Shown piece after piece: positions 2,418 through 59,402 of a stretch of 59,402 nucleotides of DNA. The notes under the pieces were generated by a model. The model was not told the DNA's origin. It ran no database searches and was given only the letters and a program-made list of their open reading frames with translations. The position numbers were made by a program, and so were the translations under genes. Numbering within the stretch: position 1 is the stretch's first letter; the number at the start of each line of letters is the position of its first letter. Origin of the DNA: Rhodospirillaceae bacterium (GTDB taxonomy: Bacteria > Pseudomonadota > Alphaproteobacteria > Azospirillales > Azospirillaceae). The stretch lies in contig JAJUIU010000014.1 of assembly GCA_029267445.1 (NCBI GenBank), positions 1 through 59,402 of the forward strand, given 5' to 3'.

Positions 2418-4088
2418 ATGCTGGTCGCCCTGTCCATCCGCGACGTGGTCCTGATCGAGCGGTTGAACCTCGCCTTCAGGCCGGGGCTCTGCGTGCTGAC
2501 GGGTGAGACCGGGGCCGGCAAATCCATCCTGCTGGACGCGCTGGGGCTGGCGTTGGGGGCGCGCGGCGACAGCGCGCTGGTGCGCCACGGCGCGGATCAG
2601 GCGGCTGTCACGGCCGAGTTCGACCTCTCATCCCGTCCCGACCATCCGGTCTTCGCCATCCTGCGCGAGCAGGACCTGGAGGCGGAGGACACCCTCGTGC
2701 TCCGCCGCACCGTCACCACCGACGGTCGCTCCCGCGCCTTCGTCAACGACCAGCCGGTGGGCGTCACCCTGCTGCGCCGGCTGGGGGAGACTCTGGTGGA
2801 GGTGCACGGCCAGTTCGAGACGCACGGCCTGTTGGACCCGCGCACCCATCTGGGCCTGCTGGACGCCTATGCCGGCCTGGGCGACCGGGCGAAGGCCGTC
2901 GATTCGGCCTGGCGCGCCTGGCGTCAAGCCGAACAGGCCCGCACCCGCGCCGCCGAGGACGCCACCCGCGCCAGGGCGGAGGAGGATTATCTGCGCCACG
3001 CCGTGGCCGAGCTGGACGCCCTCGATCCCCACGAGGGGGAGGAGACGGAGCTGGCCGACAAGCGGATCATGCTCCAGAACCGCGAGAAGCTGGTCGAGGC
3101 CATGGACCAGGCCTATGCGGAACTGGCGGGGGAGCGCGGGGCGGAACGCTCCATCGCCGCAGCGTTGCGCGGGCTGAACCGGATCGCGGACAAGACGGGG
3201 GGCCTGCTCGATCCCGTCATCGCGGTGCTGGACGAGGCCTCCGTCCAGCTCGAGGAGGCGTCCCGCGCCCTCCAGGGCCTCTCCGCCAACGTGGACATGG
3301 ATGGCGGCTCCCTCGACCGGATCGAGGAGCGGCTGTTCGCGCTGCGCGCCGCCGCCCGCAAGCACGGGGTGGAGGTGGACGGCCTCGCCCCGCTGCGCGC
3401 CGAGATGGCGGGCAGGCTGTCGCTGATCGAGGACCAGGGCGACATCCTCCAGAAGCTCGGCCGTGCGGCGGAGGAGGCCAAGGCCGCCTATGCCAAGGTG
3501 GCGGAGGATCTGTCCAAGGCCCGCGCCGCCGCCGCCGGCAAGCTCGATTCGGCCGTCGCCGCCGAGCTCAAGCCGCTCAAGCTGGAGAAGGCCCGCTTCA
3601 CCACACGGGTGGTCCGGGCTGAGGAGTCCGGCTGGGGGCCCGACGGCATCGACGACGTGGCCTTCACCGTCGCCACCAACCCCGGCGCCCCGCCCGGCCC
3701 GCTCGCCAAGATCGCGTCGGGCGGCGAGCTCGCCCGCTTCATGCTGGCCCTCAAGGTGGTGCTGGCCCAGGTCGGCACCGTGCCCAGCCTCGTCTTCGAC
3801 GAGGTGGACACCGGCATCGGCGGCGCCGTGGCAGACGCCGTGGGCGAGCGCCTCGCCACCCTGGGGCGCGGCCTCCAGGTTCTGGTCGTCACCCACAGCC
3901 CCCAGGTGGCCGCGCGCGGCAGGCACCACTGGCAGGTGCGCAAGCGGGCGACGGACGGCCGCGCCGTGACCGAGGTGGTGGAACTCTCCGACGCCCAGCG
4001 CCGGGAGGAGATCGCCCGCATGCTCTCCGGTGCCGAAATCACCGAAGCCGCCCGCGCCGCCGCCGAGGCGCTGATCGGGCGGGGTTGA
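2418..4088 (+). CDS. recN: DNA repair protein RecN
   Basis: SMC-like ATPase that acts on DNA double-strand breaks before RecA-dependent repair. The 556-aa length is typical. Visible are Walker A GETGAGKS (about residues 29-36), a long central coiled-coil region rich in Ala/Glu/Arg, the ABC signature ASGGELARF, Walker B SLVFDEVDTGIGG and the switch VVTHSPQVAA. The start ATGCTGGTCGCC is 56 bp after bamD, so it is probably co-transcribed. In related genomes ligA often follows directly; here about 1.9 kb of extra genes separates them. Confidence 0.96.
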   Translation: MLVALSIRDVVLIERLNLAFRPGLCVLTGETGAGKSILLDALGLALGARGDSALVRHGADQAAVTAEFDLSSRPDHPVFAILREQDLEAEDTLVLRRTVTTDGRSRAFVNDQPVGVTLLRRLGETLVEVHGQFETHGLLDPRTHLGLLDAYAGLGDRAKAVDSAWRAWRQAEQARTRAAEDATRARAEEDYLRHAVAELDALDPHEGEETELADKRIMLQNREKLVEAMDQAYAELAGERGAERSIAAALRGLNRIADKTGGLLDPVIAVLDEASVQLEEASRALQGLSANVDMDGGSLDRIEERLFALRAAARKHGVEVDGLAPLRAEMAGRLSLIEDQGDILQKLGRAAEEAKAAYAKVAEDLSKARAAAAGKLDSAVAAELKPLKLEKARFTTRVVRAEESGWGPDGIDDVAFTVATNPGAPPGPLAKIASGGELARFMLALKVVLAQVGTVPSLVFDEVDTGIGGAVADAVGERLATLGRGLQVLVVTHSPQVAARGRHHWQVRKRATDGRAVTEVVELSDAQRREEIARMLSGAEITEAARAAAEALIGRG

Positions 4089-4140
4089 CCTCAAAAGAAG
4101 ACTTCGGCAGGCTTGTTGCAACCTTTATGGAAGTGCTGAC

Positions 4141-4833
4141 ATGCCAGATAACCTAGCAACGCTGCGTGCTCAGTACGCCCGACTCAAGGGCATTGAACAG
4201 GCAACGTTCGGAAGCAGTGCTGTACGCACTGCGATTGTTAGAGATTTTAACTCAATAGTCAGGAAAATTTCATCTGTCACCTCAGAAGACTTCGCCGATT
4301 TTCTTGTAAATGACCCGATCGTACACGATGAGAGCAAATTTATTCCAATGGCGATATTCGACAGCAAATTAAAACAGACAATAAACGTATTAAATTACAG
4401 CTATAATTTGTCTAATCGGATTATTGAAATTGGGAGTCTTTACAATGCAATCCACGATGAAGAGCTGAAAAATAGATGCTCTGACCTTCTTTCAGCAGTA
4501 TCTGCTTTTGACAGGGTTATAAATCAGGCGACGCTCGTATTAGAAGATCGCATCAGACGCAAGCTGTCGTACACTGGTGGACTTACTGGTGCGCAACTAA
4601 TAAATAGCTTCATAAAGGCTGATCTGTCTACGACCACATTGAAGTTGAGCGATGACGAAGGTGAGCACAGAGGATTTTGTGACATCATGCGCGGTATTAT
4701 GTCCGCTTTAAGAAACCCAACCCATCATACAATAACTGAGAAGTTTACCAGAGAAGATGCTTTGAAGATCTGCGGCTTTATCGACAACCTCTTAAGGATT
4801 GTTGATGGCGGTACGGTCATTCGGAGTGTTTAG
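4141..4833 (+). CDS. HEPN-like protein of the TIGR02391/Ymh type, AT-rich (acquired)
   Basis: 230-aa product. The C-terminal part carries FCDIMRGIMSALRNPTHH (residues 179-196) followed by EDALKICGFIDNLLRIVD. This resembles the hypothetical TIGR02391/'Ymh' family, in which an RNPxxH-like signature precedes an EDAL..L helix. RNPTHH fits the RNxxxH ribonuclease motif of the HEPN superfamily, many of whose members are toxin or anti-phage RNases. The N-terminal half is helical and not recognised. Base composition is very different: several 60-base lines are 28-45% GC against about 70% around it, and rare A/T-ending codons abound, so it was probably acquired. Activity is inferred. It could also be an inactive scaffold. 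Confidence 0.7.
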   Translation: MPDNLATLRAQYARLKGIEQATFGSSAVRTAIVRDFNSIVRKISSVTSEDFADFLVNDPIVHDESKFIPMAIFDSKLKQTINVLNYSYNLSNRIIEIGSLYNAIHDEELKNRCSDLLSAVSAFDRVINQATLVLEDRIRRKLSYTGGLTGAQLINSFIKADLSTTTLKLSDDEGEHRGFCDIMRGIMSALRNPTHHTITEKFTREDALKICGFIDNLLRIVDGGTVIRSV

Positions 4834-4834
4834 A

Positions 4835-4859
4835 GAATTTTTTCGCACAGGATTTTTTC
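4835..4859 (+). repeat. T-rich 10-bp direct repeat after the HEPN gene
   Basis: GAATTTTTTC (4835-4844) and GGATTTTTTC (4850-4859) are repeated with a 15-bp period between the HEPN-like stop and the next gene. There is no hairpin, so it is not a normal terminator. It marks the end of the AT-rich segment. Confidence 0.5.
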
Positions 4860-4922
4860 AGGATGCCTATTCGGTATAGCCGCGATGAAACTGAACGCGT
4901 TCTGGGACAGGAGCTTCCACCC

Positions 4923-5198
4923 ATGAGCGGCGAGAACCCGAGCGGCGAGAACCCGATCAGCTACGATCCCGCGACCGACATGCTGTGGGTCGAGCTGCGT
5001 GAGTGGCCCGGTGCCGGCACCGCTAGCGATACCGCCGCCGTGGGTGGAGAAGACGCCGAGACCGACCTTGTCGTGCATTACGCCGCCGACGGCGAGCCCT
5101 GGGCCTGGGAGATCGAGCATGCCTCCACACGTCCCGATCTGGTGGCGCGCGCCTTGAGGGAGGTGCGGGCTCGTCGTCTGCCCGCCCGGGCCGCCTGA
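4923..5198 (+). CDS. DUF2283-like small protein
   Basis: 91 aa from the ATG at 4923. This start has AGGAG 9 nt upstream; an in-frame ATG at 4863 would add 20 residues and is the alternative. The core reads ISYDPATDMLWVEL...DLVVHYAADGEPWAWEIEHAS, matching the DUF2283 pattern (YD...D.LYI.L ... .VDYD..G...GIEI..AS). That family has unknown function and often sits near toxin-antitoxin or mobile genes. Its start has a tandem 15-bp duplication giving SGENPSGENP. GC is back to the host level. It lies 89 bp after the HEPN-like gene on the same strand; pairing as antitoxin is only a guess. Confidence 0.65.
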   Translation: MSGENPSGENPISYDPATDMLWVELREWPGAGTASDTAAVGGEDAETDLVVHYAADGEPWAWEIEHASTRPDLVARALREVRARRLPARAA

Positions 5199-10303: not shown

Positions 10304-10723
10304 ATGAAGTACCTGCACACCATGGTCCGCGTGACCGACCTGGACGCCTCGCTGGACTTCTACTGCGCCAAGCTGGGCCTGAAGGAGGTCCGGCGGATGG
10401 AGAACGAGAAGGGCCGCTACACCCTGGTCTTCCTCGCCGCTGAGGAGACGCCGGACGCCCAGATCGAGCTGACCTACAACTGGGACCCGGAGGAGTACAC
10501 GGGCGGGCGCAACTTCGGCCATCTCGCCTTCGCCGTGGACGACATCTACGCCACCTGCCAGCGGCTGATGGACAAGGGTGTGACCATCAACCGCCCGCCG
10601 CGCGACGGCCGCATGGCCTTCGTCCGCTCCCCCGACAACATCTCGGTCGAGCTGCTGCAGAAGGGTGCCGCCCTGCCCCCGGCCGAACCCTGGACCAGCA
10701 TGCCCAACACCGGCGTGTGGTGA
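10304..10723 (+). CDS. gloA: Lactoylglutathione lyase (glyoxalase I)
   Basis: 139-aa VOC-fold enzyme that converts the methylglyoxal-glutathione hemithioacetal to S-lactoylglutathione. The four metal ligands expected for GloA can be placed: His5 (MKYLH), Glu in QIELTYNW, His in [10 protein letters not shown] and Glu in NISVELLQ. The motif [15 protein letters not shown] is typical. The open frame runs back to 10148, but homology begins at the ATG at 10304, preceded by GGAGAGC. Confidence 0.93.
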
Positions 10724-10754
10724 CGCCGGGCGACACCGCTTGACGGACGGCTGA

Positions 10755-10806
10755 GACCTCGCCCAACGATAGGGGCCGGCGCTGCCCGGCGCCCCTTGGC
10801 GAGGTC
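10755..10806 (+). promoter_or_regulatory. Leader hairpin sequestering the RhtB ribosome site
   Basis: GACCTCGCC (10755-10763) is perfectly complementary to GGCGAGGTC (10798-10806). Between them an inner GC-rich hairpin starts with AGGGGC (10771-10776) pairing GCCCCT (10791-10796). The right outer arm contains the purine-rich GCGAGG just before the ATG at 10813, so folding would hide the ribosome binding site of the exporter. No U-tract follows, so it is not a terminator. Confidence 0.45.
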
Positions 10807-10812
10807 CCGTCC

Positions 10813-11430
10813 ATGCCGCCTGAAACCTGGTTCGCCTTCGTCGCGGCCTCGGCCCTGATCATCGCCATGCCGGGGCCGAACGTGGCCCTGATCGTGGCGA
10901 ACACCCTGGCCTATGGCCGGCGCTACGGCCTCGTCACCGTGTCGGGCACCAGTGCCGCCATGGTGCCGCAGCTGGCCCTGACGGTGCTGGGCATGTCCGG
11001 CCTCGTCACCGTCGCCGCCTCCGTCTTCGAATGGGTGCGCTGGGCCGGTGTCGCTTACCTGGTCTGGCTGGCGGTCCAGGCCTTCCGGGCGCCGCCGGTG
11101 GACCTGACCCGCGTGGCGCCCGAGCGCAAGGCCGCCCGCGCCATCTTCCTGCGCGGCTTCCTCGTCTCGCTCAGCAATCCCAAGACGCTGATCTTCTTCG
11201 GCGCCTTCCTGCCGCAGTTCGTCACGCCCGGCGGATCGGTCACCGGCCAGCTCGCCCTGCTGGCGGCGACCTTCCTTGCCGTCGCCGTCCTGCTGGACTG
11301 CGGCTGGGCGCTGGCCGCCGGCCGGCTGCGCGGGCTGCTGTCGACCAGCGGGCGGCTGCGCAACCGGCTGACCGGCGGGTTCTATCTGACTGCCGCCGCC
11401 GGCCTCGCCCTCACCCGCCGCAGCGCCTGA
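10813..11430 (+). CDS. LysE/RhtB family amino-acid exporter
   Basis: 205-aa inner-membrane protein with about six hydrophobic segments. Family motifs: MPGPNVALIVANTLAYGRRYGL at the N-terminus (the PGPN block), WAGVAYLVWLAVQAFR after TM3, and the central FLRGFLVSLSNPKTLIFFGAFLPQF with the conserved NPK. RhtB/LysE proteins export homoserine, threonine, lysine or related amino acids; the substrate here cannot be told. The start at 10813 is right after a hairpin that could hide its ribosome site. Confidence 0.9.
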   Translation: MPPETWFAFVAASALIIAMPGPNVALIVANTLAYGRRYGLVTVSGTSAAMVPQLALTVLGMSGLVTVAASVFEWVRWAGVAYLVWLAVQAFRAPPVDLTRVAPERKAARAIFLRGFLVSLSNPKTLIFFGAFLPQFVTPGGSVTGQLALLAATFLAVAVLLDCGWALAAGRLRGLLSTSGRLRNRLTGGFYLTAAAGLALTRRSA

Positions 11431-55861: not shown

Positions 55862-56680
55862 ATGGCCGATGATTGGGAAGACATGGTCAAGGACAACACC
55901 CTTCCGCTGGCGCTGATAGGCGTCGGCCTGGGATGGCTGCTGCTGTCCAATGCGAGGGACACGGAAAGCTTCGAGCATGCCCGTGACTGGACCGAACGGC
56001 AGCGTTCGGCGGCCCGGGGCCGTTATGCCCAGGCCCGGGGGCAGGCGCGCGGCGCCTATGCCGAGCACAAGGGCACGATGCCCCGTTACTACGATGAGGC
56101 GCGGGGCCGCGTCTCCCGGGCGATGGAGAGCGTGCGCCATGGCGCGGACGAACTCCGGCACCGCGCGGGTGAACGGGTGCAGGGCATGCGCGGCGGGTCC
56201 GGCCAGGAGACGGGTCGCGGGTATGACAGCGTCGCCGATTACGACGCGCGCGGCGACTACGCGGCCTATGGCGAAAGCGCCTATGGCTACGATTACGACA
56301 GCACCACCGGCCGTGGCCGCTCGGGTGGCATGATGAGCCGCTCGCGCGGAATGATGCAGGGCCTGTCCTCACGCACGCAGCACGCCGGCGAAAGCCTATG
56401 GGACATGATCGACGAGCATCCGCTCGCCGCCGGGCTGATGGGCCTCGCGCTCGGGGCCGCCGTCGGGGCGAGCCTGCCGGCGACACAGACCGAGGACGAA
56501 TGGTTCGGTGAGTACCGCGACCAGCTGGCCGAACGGGCCTGGCACGAGGGCGAGGGCTACATGGAGCGGGCCGGCAACGTCGCGAAGGAGGCGGCGCGCG
56601 CCGGTGCCGACGCCGCACGCGACCGGGCCCGCGAGGAGGCGGACCGGCAGGGCCTGACGTCCACGGACGCCCAGAGCTGA
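55862..56680 (+). CDS. Membrane-associated helical protein, last of the stress operon (DUF3618-like/nutrient-deprivation type)
   Basis: 272 aa. WEDMVKDNTLPLALIGVGLGWLLLSNA (one membrane segment) at the start, a helical Ala/Arg/Glu region, a Tyr/Gly/Asp-rich stretch (about 120-155), a second hydrophobic segment (HPLAAGLMGLALGAAVGASLP), and a C-terminal helix (NVAKEAARAGADAARDRAREEADRQG). The hydrophobic ENPLPxxLIGxGxGW-like motif is shared with nutrient-deprivation-induced proteins of rhizobia. Strong terminator after it. Confidence 0.7.
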   Translation: MADDWEDMVKDNTLPLALIGVGLGWLLLSNARDTESFEHARDWTERQRSAARGRYAQARGQARGAYAEHKGTMPRYYDEARGRVSRAMESVRHGADELRHRAGERVQGMRGGSGQETGRGYDSVADYDARGDYAAYGESAYGYDYDSTTGRGRSGGMMSRSRGMMQGLSSRTQHAGESLWDMIDEHPLAAGLMGLALGAAVGASLPATQTEDEWFGEYRDQLAERAWHEGEGYMERAGNVAKEAARAGADAARDRAREEADRQGLTSTDAQS

Positions 56681-56710
56681 TCCCGAATCGTCCTTCGACG
56701 GTTGATCTGA

Positions 56711-56745
56711 AGGGCCCCGTCCGCCAGTCGGACGGGGCCCTTCCC
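56711..56745 (+). terminator. Terminator of the holin-like operon
   Basis: AGGGCCCCGTCCG (56711-56723) pairs perfectly with CGGACGGGGCCCT (56729-56741) around CCAGT, followed by TCCC. 13-bp stem. Confidence 0.85.
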
Positions 56746-56804
56746 ATTCGGGGATGAATAACCCCATGGCTGAATCGGCTTGACTTGATCCGGTGCCAGG
56801 TCCA

Positions 56805-56835
56805 GTTAAAGCGTACCAGATTGGTCCGGTTTAAC
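56805..56835. promoter_or_regulatory. 31-bp palindromic operator before the SUF regulator
   Basis: GTTAAAGCGTACC (56805-56817), 5-bp spacer AGATT, GGTCCGGTTTAAC (56823-56835). Arms match at 11 of 13 positions. It lies 31 bp upstream of the Rrf2 ATG. A TTGACT (56780-56785) further up could be a -35. The site would let an Rrf2 dimer control its own gene and the suf genes behind it. Confidence 0.65.
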
Positions 56836-56866
56836 GACCGCCACCGCAGGTGCCGGGAGGCGTCCC

Positions 56867-57343
56867 ATGATCAGGTTGAGCAAGCTCACCGACTACGCCG
56901 TGGTCGTACTGACCGAGATGGCGCGTATCGATGCGCGTGCCCGCCAGCCGACCGTGTTCACAGCACCTGCCCTGGCGGATCGCACCGCGGCACCCGTGCC
57001 CACCGTGCAGAAGGTTCTGAAGCTGTTGGTGAAGGGCGGTGTGGTCGTGTCCACACGCGGAGCCGCTGGAGGCTATGCCTTGGCGAGGACGCCCGACCGC
57101 ATCACGGTCGCCCAGATCATCCAGGCCGTGGACGGTCCCATCGCGCTGACAGACTGCGTCGACGGGGCGGAGGGGTCCTGCGGCGTTGAGCGCCTTTGCC
57201 CGATCCGGGGCAACTGGGACAAGGTCAACCGCGCCGTCCGCGTGGCGCTCGAGAGTGTGACGCTGGCCGACATGGCCATGCCCACCCTGCCCGACCTCGC
57301 CGTTCCGCCGCCCGCGCGCCGGGCTGCGGCGGCGGCCGGCTGA
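56867..57343 (+). CDS. Rrf2 family SUF-system regulator (SufR/IscR-like)
   Basis: 158 aa. Winged helix LSKLTDYAVVVLTEMARIDAR...FTAPALADRTAAPVPTVQKVLKLLVKGGVVVSTRGAAGGYALAR, with Fe-S ligands Cys97, Cys105 and Cys111 in CVDGAEGSCGVERLC (IscR uses C92/C98/C104). It senses Fe-S status and controls Fe-S assembly genes. It stands right before sufB, as in many alphaproteobacteria (SUF minimal system regulator type). ATG 56867; GGGAGG precedes it. Confidence 0.92.
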   Translation: MIRLSKLTDYAVVVLTEMARIDARARQPTVFTAPALADRTAAPVPTVQKVLKLLVKGGVVVSTRGAAGGYALARTPDRITVAQIIQAVDGPIALTDCVDGAEGSCGVERLCPIRGNWDKVNRAVRVALESVTLADMAMPTLPDLAVPPPARRAAAAAG

Positions 57344-57380
57344 CCGTGGGCGAACGGAAACGCATGAGGGGTTGATAGAG

Positions 57381-57962
57381 ATGGCCGCGACGGAACAGAC
57401 CCTGGAGCAGGTCCGCAGCCTGACCGAAGGCAAGTACAAGTACGGCTTCTTCACGGACATCGAGTCCGAGATGGCCCCCAAGGGCCTGAACGAGGACATC
57501 GTCCGCTTCATCTCTGCCAAGAAAAACGAGCCGGAGTGGCTGCTGGAGTGGCGTCTGAAGGCGTTCCGCCACTGGCTGACGATGGCCGAGCCGGACTGGG
57601 CGATGCTGAAGTATCCGCCCATCGACTACCAGGACGCCTACTACTACGCCGCACCCAAGGTGAAGGACGGCCCGAAGTCCCTGGACGAGGTCGATCCGGA
57701 GCTGCTGAAGACCTACGAGAAGCTGGGCATCCCGCTGAAGGAGCAGGAGATCCTGGCGGGCGTGGAGGGAGCCGGCGATGTGCCGGCCATCGCCGTCGAC
57801 GCCGTGTTCGACAGCGTCTCGGTGGCGACGACCTTCAAGAAGAAGCTGGAGGAGAAGGGCATTATCTTCTGCTCCATCTCCGAGGCGATCCAGAACCACC
57901 CGGAGCTGGTGCGGAAGTACGTGGACAGCTCCATCGGGCAGCGCACGCCCGGCGGGATGTAG
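57381..57962 (+). CDS. sufB: SufB, 5' fragment (interrupted by inverted join)
   Basis: SufB is the scaffold component of the SufBCD Fe-S assembly complex, normally about 480-490 aa. Here only the first about 180 residues are Suf[49 protein letters not shown] through NHPELVRKY. After codon 180 (base 57920) the frame reads [12 protein letters not shown] and stops, because it enters the antisense of another sufB. SufCDSU are not downstream. Start and ribosome site (GAGGGG) are good, 37 bp after the regulator. Either contig chimera or a true broken gene. Confidence 0.85.
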
Positions 57963-58546
57963 CAGAACGAACCATCGGAGAACACCGCCGAGTTGAGGGT
58001 GGCGAAGAAATTGTCGGTGTACGGCACGACTGAGCCGAGGTACTGACGCACCAGGTCCGGGTGCTCGCGCACGGCGTCGGAGAAGGAACAGAAGATGATG
58101 CCCATTTCCGCCAGCTTGGTCTTGAAGGTCGTCGCCACCGAGACACTGTCGAACACCGCATCGACGGCCACGCCGGCCAGCAGTTCGCGTTCGGCGAGTG
58201 GCACGCCGAGCTTTTCGTAGGTGCGCAGCAATTCCGGATCAACCTCGGCCAGGCTGCGCGGTCCGTCCTGCTGCGATTTTGGTGCCGAGTAGTAGGAAAT
58301 GTCCTGATAGTCGATCGGCGGATGGATGACGGTCGACCACGTCGGCTCGCGCAGCGTCAGCCAGTGCCGGTAGGCTGCCAGGCGCCATTCGAGCATGAAC
58401 GCCGGCTCGTTCTTCTTCGCAGAAATCAGTCGGATGACGTCTTCGCTGAGGCCACGCGGCACCGTGTCGGTTTCCAGCGGGGTGTAGAACCCTTGCCGAT
58501 ACTCCCGGCCGATCAGCTCATCGAGGCTTGATGTCGGATTTGCCAT
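57713..58546 (-). CDS. sufB: Second SufB, 5' fragment in inverted orientation
   Basis: The minus-strand frame starts [63 protein letters not shown] and follows SufB through [24 protein letters not shown], ending as SufB at base 57911. From there to its stop (57713) it is merely the antisense of the plus-strand sufB. The two SufBs differ at about one-third or more of aligned residues and lack a shared insertion (EGAGDVPAI is absent here), so they are not recent duplicates. Flanking GC is about 58-60%, lower than the rest. Confidence 0.85.
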
Positions 58547-58724
58547 GGACCTGCCTCGCCTCTTTCATGGTTGGCGGGGGACGGTTGGCGCTTCGGTCCG
58601 GCGCTGCCGAACGCATTGGCGTTAACCTCCTCACGCCTTTAAGACCGAGGCCGTTTCGTATCGTTCCGACGAAAAATTGAACGGCGAGCGCGCGTGGCAC
58701 CGGCCGTTCCAAGTTGTGCGGCGA

Positions 58725-59303
58725 TCAGGCGAGAACCGTTCCCCAGGTGACGAATGCGAGCACCAGCATGATGACCCAGGCAACGAGGCCTGCAGCGAAG
58801 ACGCTTCCTCCGAGCAGGAGTGAATGACCTTCGTCATTCAGGTCGTAGGTGCGGTCGACGCCCTGGAAGATCAGCACTGCCGCGCAGGCAAGGGCCAGGA
58901 GCATCATCAGGATGTTGAATACCAGGCTCGGGACAAACAGGGCTACCGGGGCCAGCCACAGTGGCGTGGGAACCACCGCCGCCAGGGTAAAGGCATCCTG
59001 ATAGGAGGGCGACGCATCGACAACCTGGCCGATCATCTGCAGGACACGCCCCATGATCGGCACCATCACAAGTTCCGCGGTGAAGAATACGACCGCCAGG
59101 AACCAAGCCTCGCCAAGCGTGATTTCCGGCAGCGGCGGGCCGCCGTAGGTGCGCCAGGCATACAGCAGCATGGCGGGCGGAATCAGCGACATCGGAATGA
59201 CGTAGAGGAAGTACAGTTTGGCGACCGACGGGTGAATGCGTTTCAGCCAGTCCCAACCTTCCCCGTGCGATGTCAACATTCTCGGAAACATCATCGGATT
59301 CAT
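58725..59303 (-). CDS. Yip1-family-like inner-membrane protein
   Basis: 192 aa with about five hydrophobic segments (FLYVIPMSLIPPAMLLYAW, AWFLAVVFFTAELVMVPIMG, LAPVALFVPSLVFNILMMLLALACAAVLIF, VFAAGLVAWVIMLVLAFVTWG). The N-terminal MLTSHGEGWDWLKRIHPS and the YxDAFTLAAVVPTPLWL block fit the bacterial Yip1-domain proteins. Function unknown. It lies beyond the sufB join, on the same strand as the second SufB but upstream of it (178-bp gap), and probably belongs to the other genome. Last complete gene; 59304-59402 holds no recognisable gene. Confidence 0.75.
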   Translation of the reverse strand: MNPMMFPRMLTSHGEGWDWLKRIHPSVAKLYFLYVIPMSLIPPAMLLYAWRTYGGPPLPEITLGEAWFLAVVFFTAELVMVPIMGRVLQMIGQVVDASPSYQDAFTLAAVVPTPLWLAPVALFVPSLVFNILMMLLALACAAVLIFQGVDRTYDLNDEGHSLLLGGSVFAAGLVAWVIMLVLAFVTWGTVLA

Positions 59304-59402
59304 GACATGCCTCCTCGTGGACGTCGATCAATGGAAATTTGACCGGCAATGTCGGATTTGGTTTTCGTCGAGGAAAAAGTGAGCGAGGATTTCGGCGAAA
59401 TC

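Follow-up and report, generated by a model that had tools for sequence, protein, structure and literature searches.

The window, that is, the whole stretch of DNA analysed, is a complete contig (C160) with a length of 59,402 nt. It belongs to a draft genome that comprises 174 contigs and 4.23 Mb and is scored at 100% completeness and 0.65% contamination. At its right end two incomplete sufB genes meet on opposite strands. The features of this end are as follows.

56867 to 57343, plus strand: native rrf2-type SUF regulator gene (TIGR02944, 137.6 bits against a cut-off of 110.65)
57381 to 57920, plus strand: opening 180 codons of the native sufB, truncated after VRKY (NF008773 positions 3-177 of 484; groups with same-family relatives)
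57910 to 57920: join, inverted microhomology TGCGGAAGTAC, where the left homology stops and the right homology begins
57911 to 58546, minus strand: opening 212 codons of the foreign sufB, truncated after STYFR (NF008773 positions 8-216 of 484)
57921 to 59402 (contig end): foreign tail, Rhodocyclaceae-like (DNA identity to Propionivibrio locus L035; tetranucleotide distance)
58725 to 59303, minus strand: foreign yip1 gene (PF04893, 60.7 bits)

The plus-strand SufB starts with the ATG at 57381 and ends with the TAC codon at 57918-57920, in the residues NHPELVRKY, and the minus-strand SufB is read from 58546 down to 57911 with yip1 upstream of it (59303-58725). The original prediction had let the two homologies end at VRKY (57920) and at STYFR (57911) and had given the overlap of the halves as GCGGAAGTAC (57911-57920), and both ends and the overlap proved exact. 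The opposite strands of the two halves mean that the second piece is inverted. A single gene folded back on itself, which the prediction had already discounted, was rejected, as residues 11-174 of the right half share 65% identity with the left half. The tail reaches the contig end, and no native DNA is visible beyond it. Its yip1 and sufB genes are separated by 178 nt (58547-58724) without an rrf2 gene, whereas the Propionivibrio locus L035 carries rrf2 at that place; the missing rrf2 points to a difference between lineages or else to a second join.

The left side of the join was compared over its last 1.4 kb (56500-57920) with 58 relatives, 34 of the same family and 24 of the same class. The best DNA match was G012 at 80%, followed by G027, G032, and G002 at 77%, all four being genomes of the same family. 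The left half also matches Azospirillum records of a plasmid collection over its full length, with 72-74% identity in the ten rows listed, and the host is therefore called Azospirillum-related. At the protein level, identities to the left half are 73-91% for the same-family loci and 61-65% for 16 distinct Rhodocyclaceae-group loci; to the right half they are 64-73% and 80-90% (90% for L035), respectively. Part of this gap is selected, because the compared loci had been fetched by their match to one half or the other. One class-level locus (L010, from G050) shows the reverse, with 66.3% to the left and 71.8% to the right half. A 9-residue insert of the EGAGDVPA type is present in the left half and in all four close relatives aligned, and absent from the right half and from all four Rhodocyclaceae-group sequences aligned. 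As a separate observation, seven genomes of the same family (G001, G006, G013, G019, G023, G028, and G033) have two sufB-like places each, so that many members of genus g2 may possess two SUF systems.

The tail gave a different picture. With Propionivibrio D159 (L035) it shares a DNA identity of 84.7% in sufB (640 nt compared) and of 80.5% in yip1 (594 nt compared), whereas in the 58 relatives only its sufB part was matched, at no more than 75% in matches of at least 250 nt. None of the 58 other relatives had a Yip1 match at E <= 0.001. A Yip1 search of genome contigs returned five loci, two from Accumulibacter and one each from Propionivibrio, Oryzomicrobium, and Rhodocyclaceae, the nearest being those of Propionivibrio and Accumulibacter with 84% protein identity. 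When 297 genomes sampled from the Propionivibrio family, to which G060 belongs, were searched with the tail, 22 of them, including L035's own genome and G063, matched at E <= 1e-140 with a best DNA identity of 85%, and the remaining 275 gave no match at that threshold. The 28 genomes of the genus of G060 contained nothing closer than 85%. The source genome was thus not found among these 297 family and 28 genus genomes, a sampled collection with one genome per species, so that its absence there does not exclude its existence. Because the best DNA match stands at 85%, the tail was placed by family and not by species. Other genomes match it unevenly: in the Accumulibacter genome G059 yip1 is 79% identical but the sufB match does not exceed 71%, and for G061 and G062 the match is confined to yip1.

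A plasmid search with the tail returned 44 records, each with 60-80% identity and none covering more than 80% of the tail. The 15 matches listed of these 44 sit in its sufB part (one extends a base beyond), the best three listed belong to Cupriavidus and Paraburkholderia, and the commonest genus is Azospirillum with 12 of the 44. A phage search, applied to 81 nt around the join, yielded a single match of 44 nt at 89% identity, in a sufB of a Microcystis phage. A plasmid or phage origin of the tail was rejected on these results. The matched phage region (MaAM05, MW495066.1, 268370-268413) is annotated as sufB on the record.

A tree of 34 rows placed the two halves on opposite sides of a branch with support 99/94, the left half with 16 rows from relatives (15 of the same family and one of the same class) and the right half with 16 Rhodocyclaceae-group rows. 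Of 47 loci, 34 were submitted to the tree, the other 13 being extra locus ids for places already included; L020 and L026 were then dropped from the 18 loci of relatives by the rule against identical or very short rows, and the two halves of the window complete the 34 rows. A native second sufB was rejected as the identity of the right half, since the tail falls outside the family's rows in this tree. Separate searches of each half for its best relatives, as the original prediction had proposed, thus led to the same family on the left and to Rhodocyclaceae on the right.

The composition of the tail was also compared with that of the contig. The tetranucleotide profile of the tail lies at a distance of 0.035 from the rest of the window, and of 153 segments of the same length only two have a distance at least as large, both over a low-G+C patch near 4-5 kb. 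Its distance to the Propionivibrio locus is 0.018, which is partly owing to genes in common. G+C content does not separate the halves, with 0.62 for the tail sufB and 0.63 for the native half. The low-G+C patch contains a gene at 4141-4833 that matches PF09509 (Hypoth_Ymh); G+C is 0.48 at 4001-5000 compared with about 0.69-0.73 in the flanks, and the gene, in what we take to be the recN region, looks acquired.

The native sufB continues elsewhere in the assembly. Contig C171 (15,189 nt) ends inside a sufB gene whose product matches the SufB profile from position 185 to the profile end, and inwards from it follow sufC, sufD, sufS, and sufU, in the same order as in relatives, with an unnamed gene after sufC and a weakly GNAT-like gene after sufD. 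The prediction that no downstream suf genes are present consequently holds within the window but not for the genome. In all four relatives measured, each with an intact gene, the stretch of sufB missing between the two contigs corresponds to 37 nt; it would be 43 nt if the tail supplied the final two codons before the join. C171 thus stops about 37-43 nt from the join, and its end is free of foreign DNA. Taken together, C171 and the left part of C160 have the same order as the known SUF operon (rrf2-sufB-sufC-sufD-sufS-sufU). The system is ordinary, with two further genes among the suf genes on C171. One of these (12588-13463 of C171) lies between sufC and sufD, has no NCBIfam match, and is GNAT-like by eye only; the other (10342-11262) lies between sufD and sufS and has weak matches to GNAT acetyltransferases below the cut-off. 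Three of four relatives have counterparts of both in the same places with 37-51% identity, and L062 has neither.

No such continuation was found for the right half. With the Propionivibrio suf locus as probe, and with 40 of 173 first-look candidates scored, the matches in the draft genome were the tail, the native half, and C171, together with two weak ones, 75-85 nt long, to the sufC part of the probe. A second C-terminal half of SufB was not found; a search with the C-terminal half of the Propionivibrio SufB recovered only the sufB of C171 and its sufD (24%). The genome contains a single NifU_N protein, which is the sufU of C171, in a search that detected the family in 12 of 14 control genomes. 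As judged by these NifU_N and SufB searches, no Fe-S assembly system other than SUF is evident, and given the sole NifU_N protein and the lack of a second SufB C-terminal half, a true break in sufB would cost the organism that system.

At the join, the T at 57910 is one extra base shared with Rhodocyclaceae sequences, which extends the shared stretch to 11 nt (57910-57920). Near the join the window has the codon AAG (K) where the four nearest relatives have CAG (Q); AAG is also present at this codon in other family members. If the native codon was CAG, the exact core would shrink to the 5 nt TGCGG and the remainder would derive from the tail. The Propionivibrio sufB served as a stand-in for the source sequence of the tail. 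In a 24-nt register over the junction, its antisense strand and the sense strand of the intact sufB of relatives share 15-16 identities. The junction score was equalled or exceeded in 140, 144, 844, and 947 of 2,076,481 registers with the four relatives tried, suggesting a join at a favoured, though not unique, annealing site. From the sequences compared, the microhomology at the junction is more than chance.

The original prediction had left the choice between a chimeric contig and a fresh inversion. The first of these is favoured because the halves come from two lineages, the left gene continues on C171, and the genome searches found no second half for the right gene. The contig end is therefore almost certainly an interspecies chimera and not a biological feature. 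Interspecies mis-joins in draft and metagenome assemblies typically show a foreign end piece, a join in a conserved gene, and an adjacent contig break, and the end of C160 resembles them in all three respects. On this reading the recipient side is the native sufB of an Azospirillum-related alphaproteobacterium, to which a yip1-sufB piece of about 1.49 kb from a Rhodocyclaceae-like bacterium has been joined in inverted orientation. The join lies at an imperfect inverted match between the ELVRxY codons of one sufB, on the sense strand, and the STYFRIN codons of the other, on the antisense strand, with a shared exact core of 5 to 11 nt.

Two origins of the chimera were considered. Assembler k-mers are normally longer than 11 nt, and the exact stretch shared here, at most 11 nt, lies below usual k-mers, which makes a mis-join in the assembly graph less likely than a chimeric molecule or a merge over a short overlap. 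Somewhat more likely than not, the origin is a chimeric molecule that arose during amplification or library preparation when a free 3' end annealed to a wrong template and primed there, and the location of the join at a favoured annealing site fits such priming. That the assembler or a scaffolder merged two contig ends over a short overlap is a serious but rather less probable possibility. The inverted second piece and the short complementary stretch (11 nt, or 5 nt) are both found in amplification-type chimeras. According to PMC1855051, more than 85% of rearrangements in amplified DNA are inverted, complementarity of 2-21 nt occurs in more than 70% of chimera junctions, and in multiple displacement amplification from a single Escherichia coli cell rearrangement within one molecule is favoured. 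The chimeras of multiple displacement amplification resemble the present join in their inverted orientation and in short complementary priming (2-21 nt there and 5-11 nt exact here), but they differ in that rearrangement within one molecule is favoured there, whereas two bacteria are involved here.

Two biological readings would accept the join as a real insertion, and each was considered very improbable. In one, a Rhodocyclaceae yip1-sufB fragment was transferred horizontally and entered the strain's native sufB in reverse orientation. The affiliation of the tail with another lineage is what a transferred piece would show, and sufB is present on plasmid-collection records of several genera. 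Yet the insertion would disrupt the one sufB detected in this genome, where the searches gave only one NifU_N protein and no further C-terminal half of SufB; C171 approaches the join to within about 37-43 nt without foreign DNA; and the tail stops at the contig end with no native DNA beyond it. A truly broken sufB without other Fe-S assembly would be hard to reconcile with a living cell. The other reading, given the same low standing, is a genuine strain in which a Rhodocyclaceae yip1-sufB fragment recently interrupted sufB by inverted insertion and in which Fe-S assembly is maintained by an arrangement unseen in the assembly.

A fresh inversion involving a pair of native sufB genes in the same genome, the second option of the original prediction, fares even worse. 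Two sufB-like places do occur in seven family genomes (six of genus g2 plus G006). An inversion would, however, draw both halves from one lineage, and the 99/94 branch separates them: the tail sufB falls among the Rhodocyclaceae rows and apart from the family copies, including L018, the one such second copy in the tree. Moreover, the genome search recovered no second SufB C-terminal half, which an inversion should have left as its other product, and Yip1 is matched in none of the 58 other relatives. The reversed assignment, with a native tail and a foreign left part, was raised since either side of a chimera might intrude, but nothing was found in its favour and it is no more credible than the inversion, as the left rrf2-sufB continues on C171 and has its best matches in its own family.

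The chimeric end of C160 is thus a warning, because a genome rated 100% complete and 0.65% contaminated nevertheless ends in 1.5 kb of foreign sequence joined on within a conserved gene. Read literally, the contig would point to horizontal transfer, to the loss of an Fe-S assembly gene, and to a Yip1 protein, which the organism itself most likely lacks.
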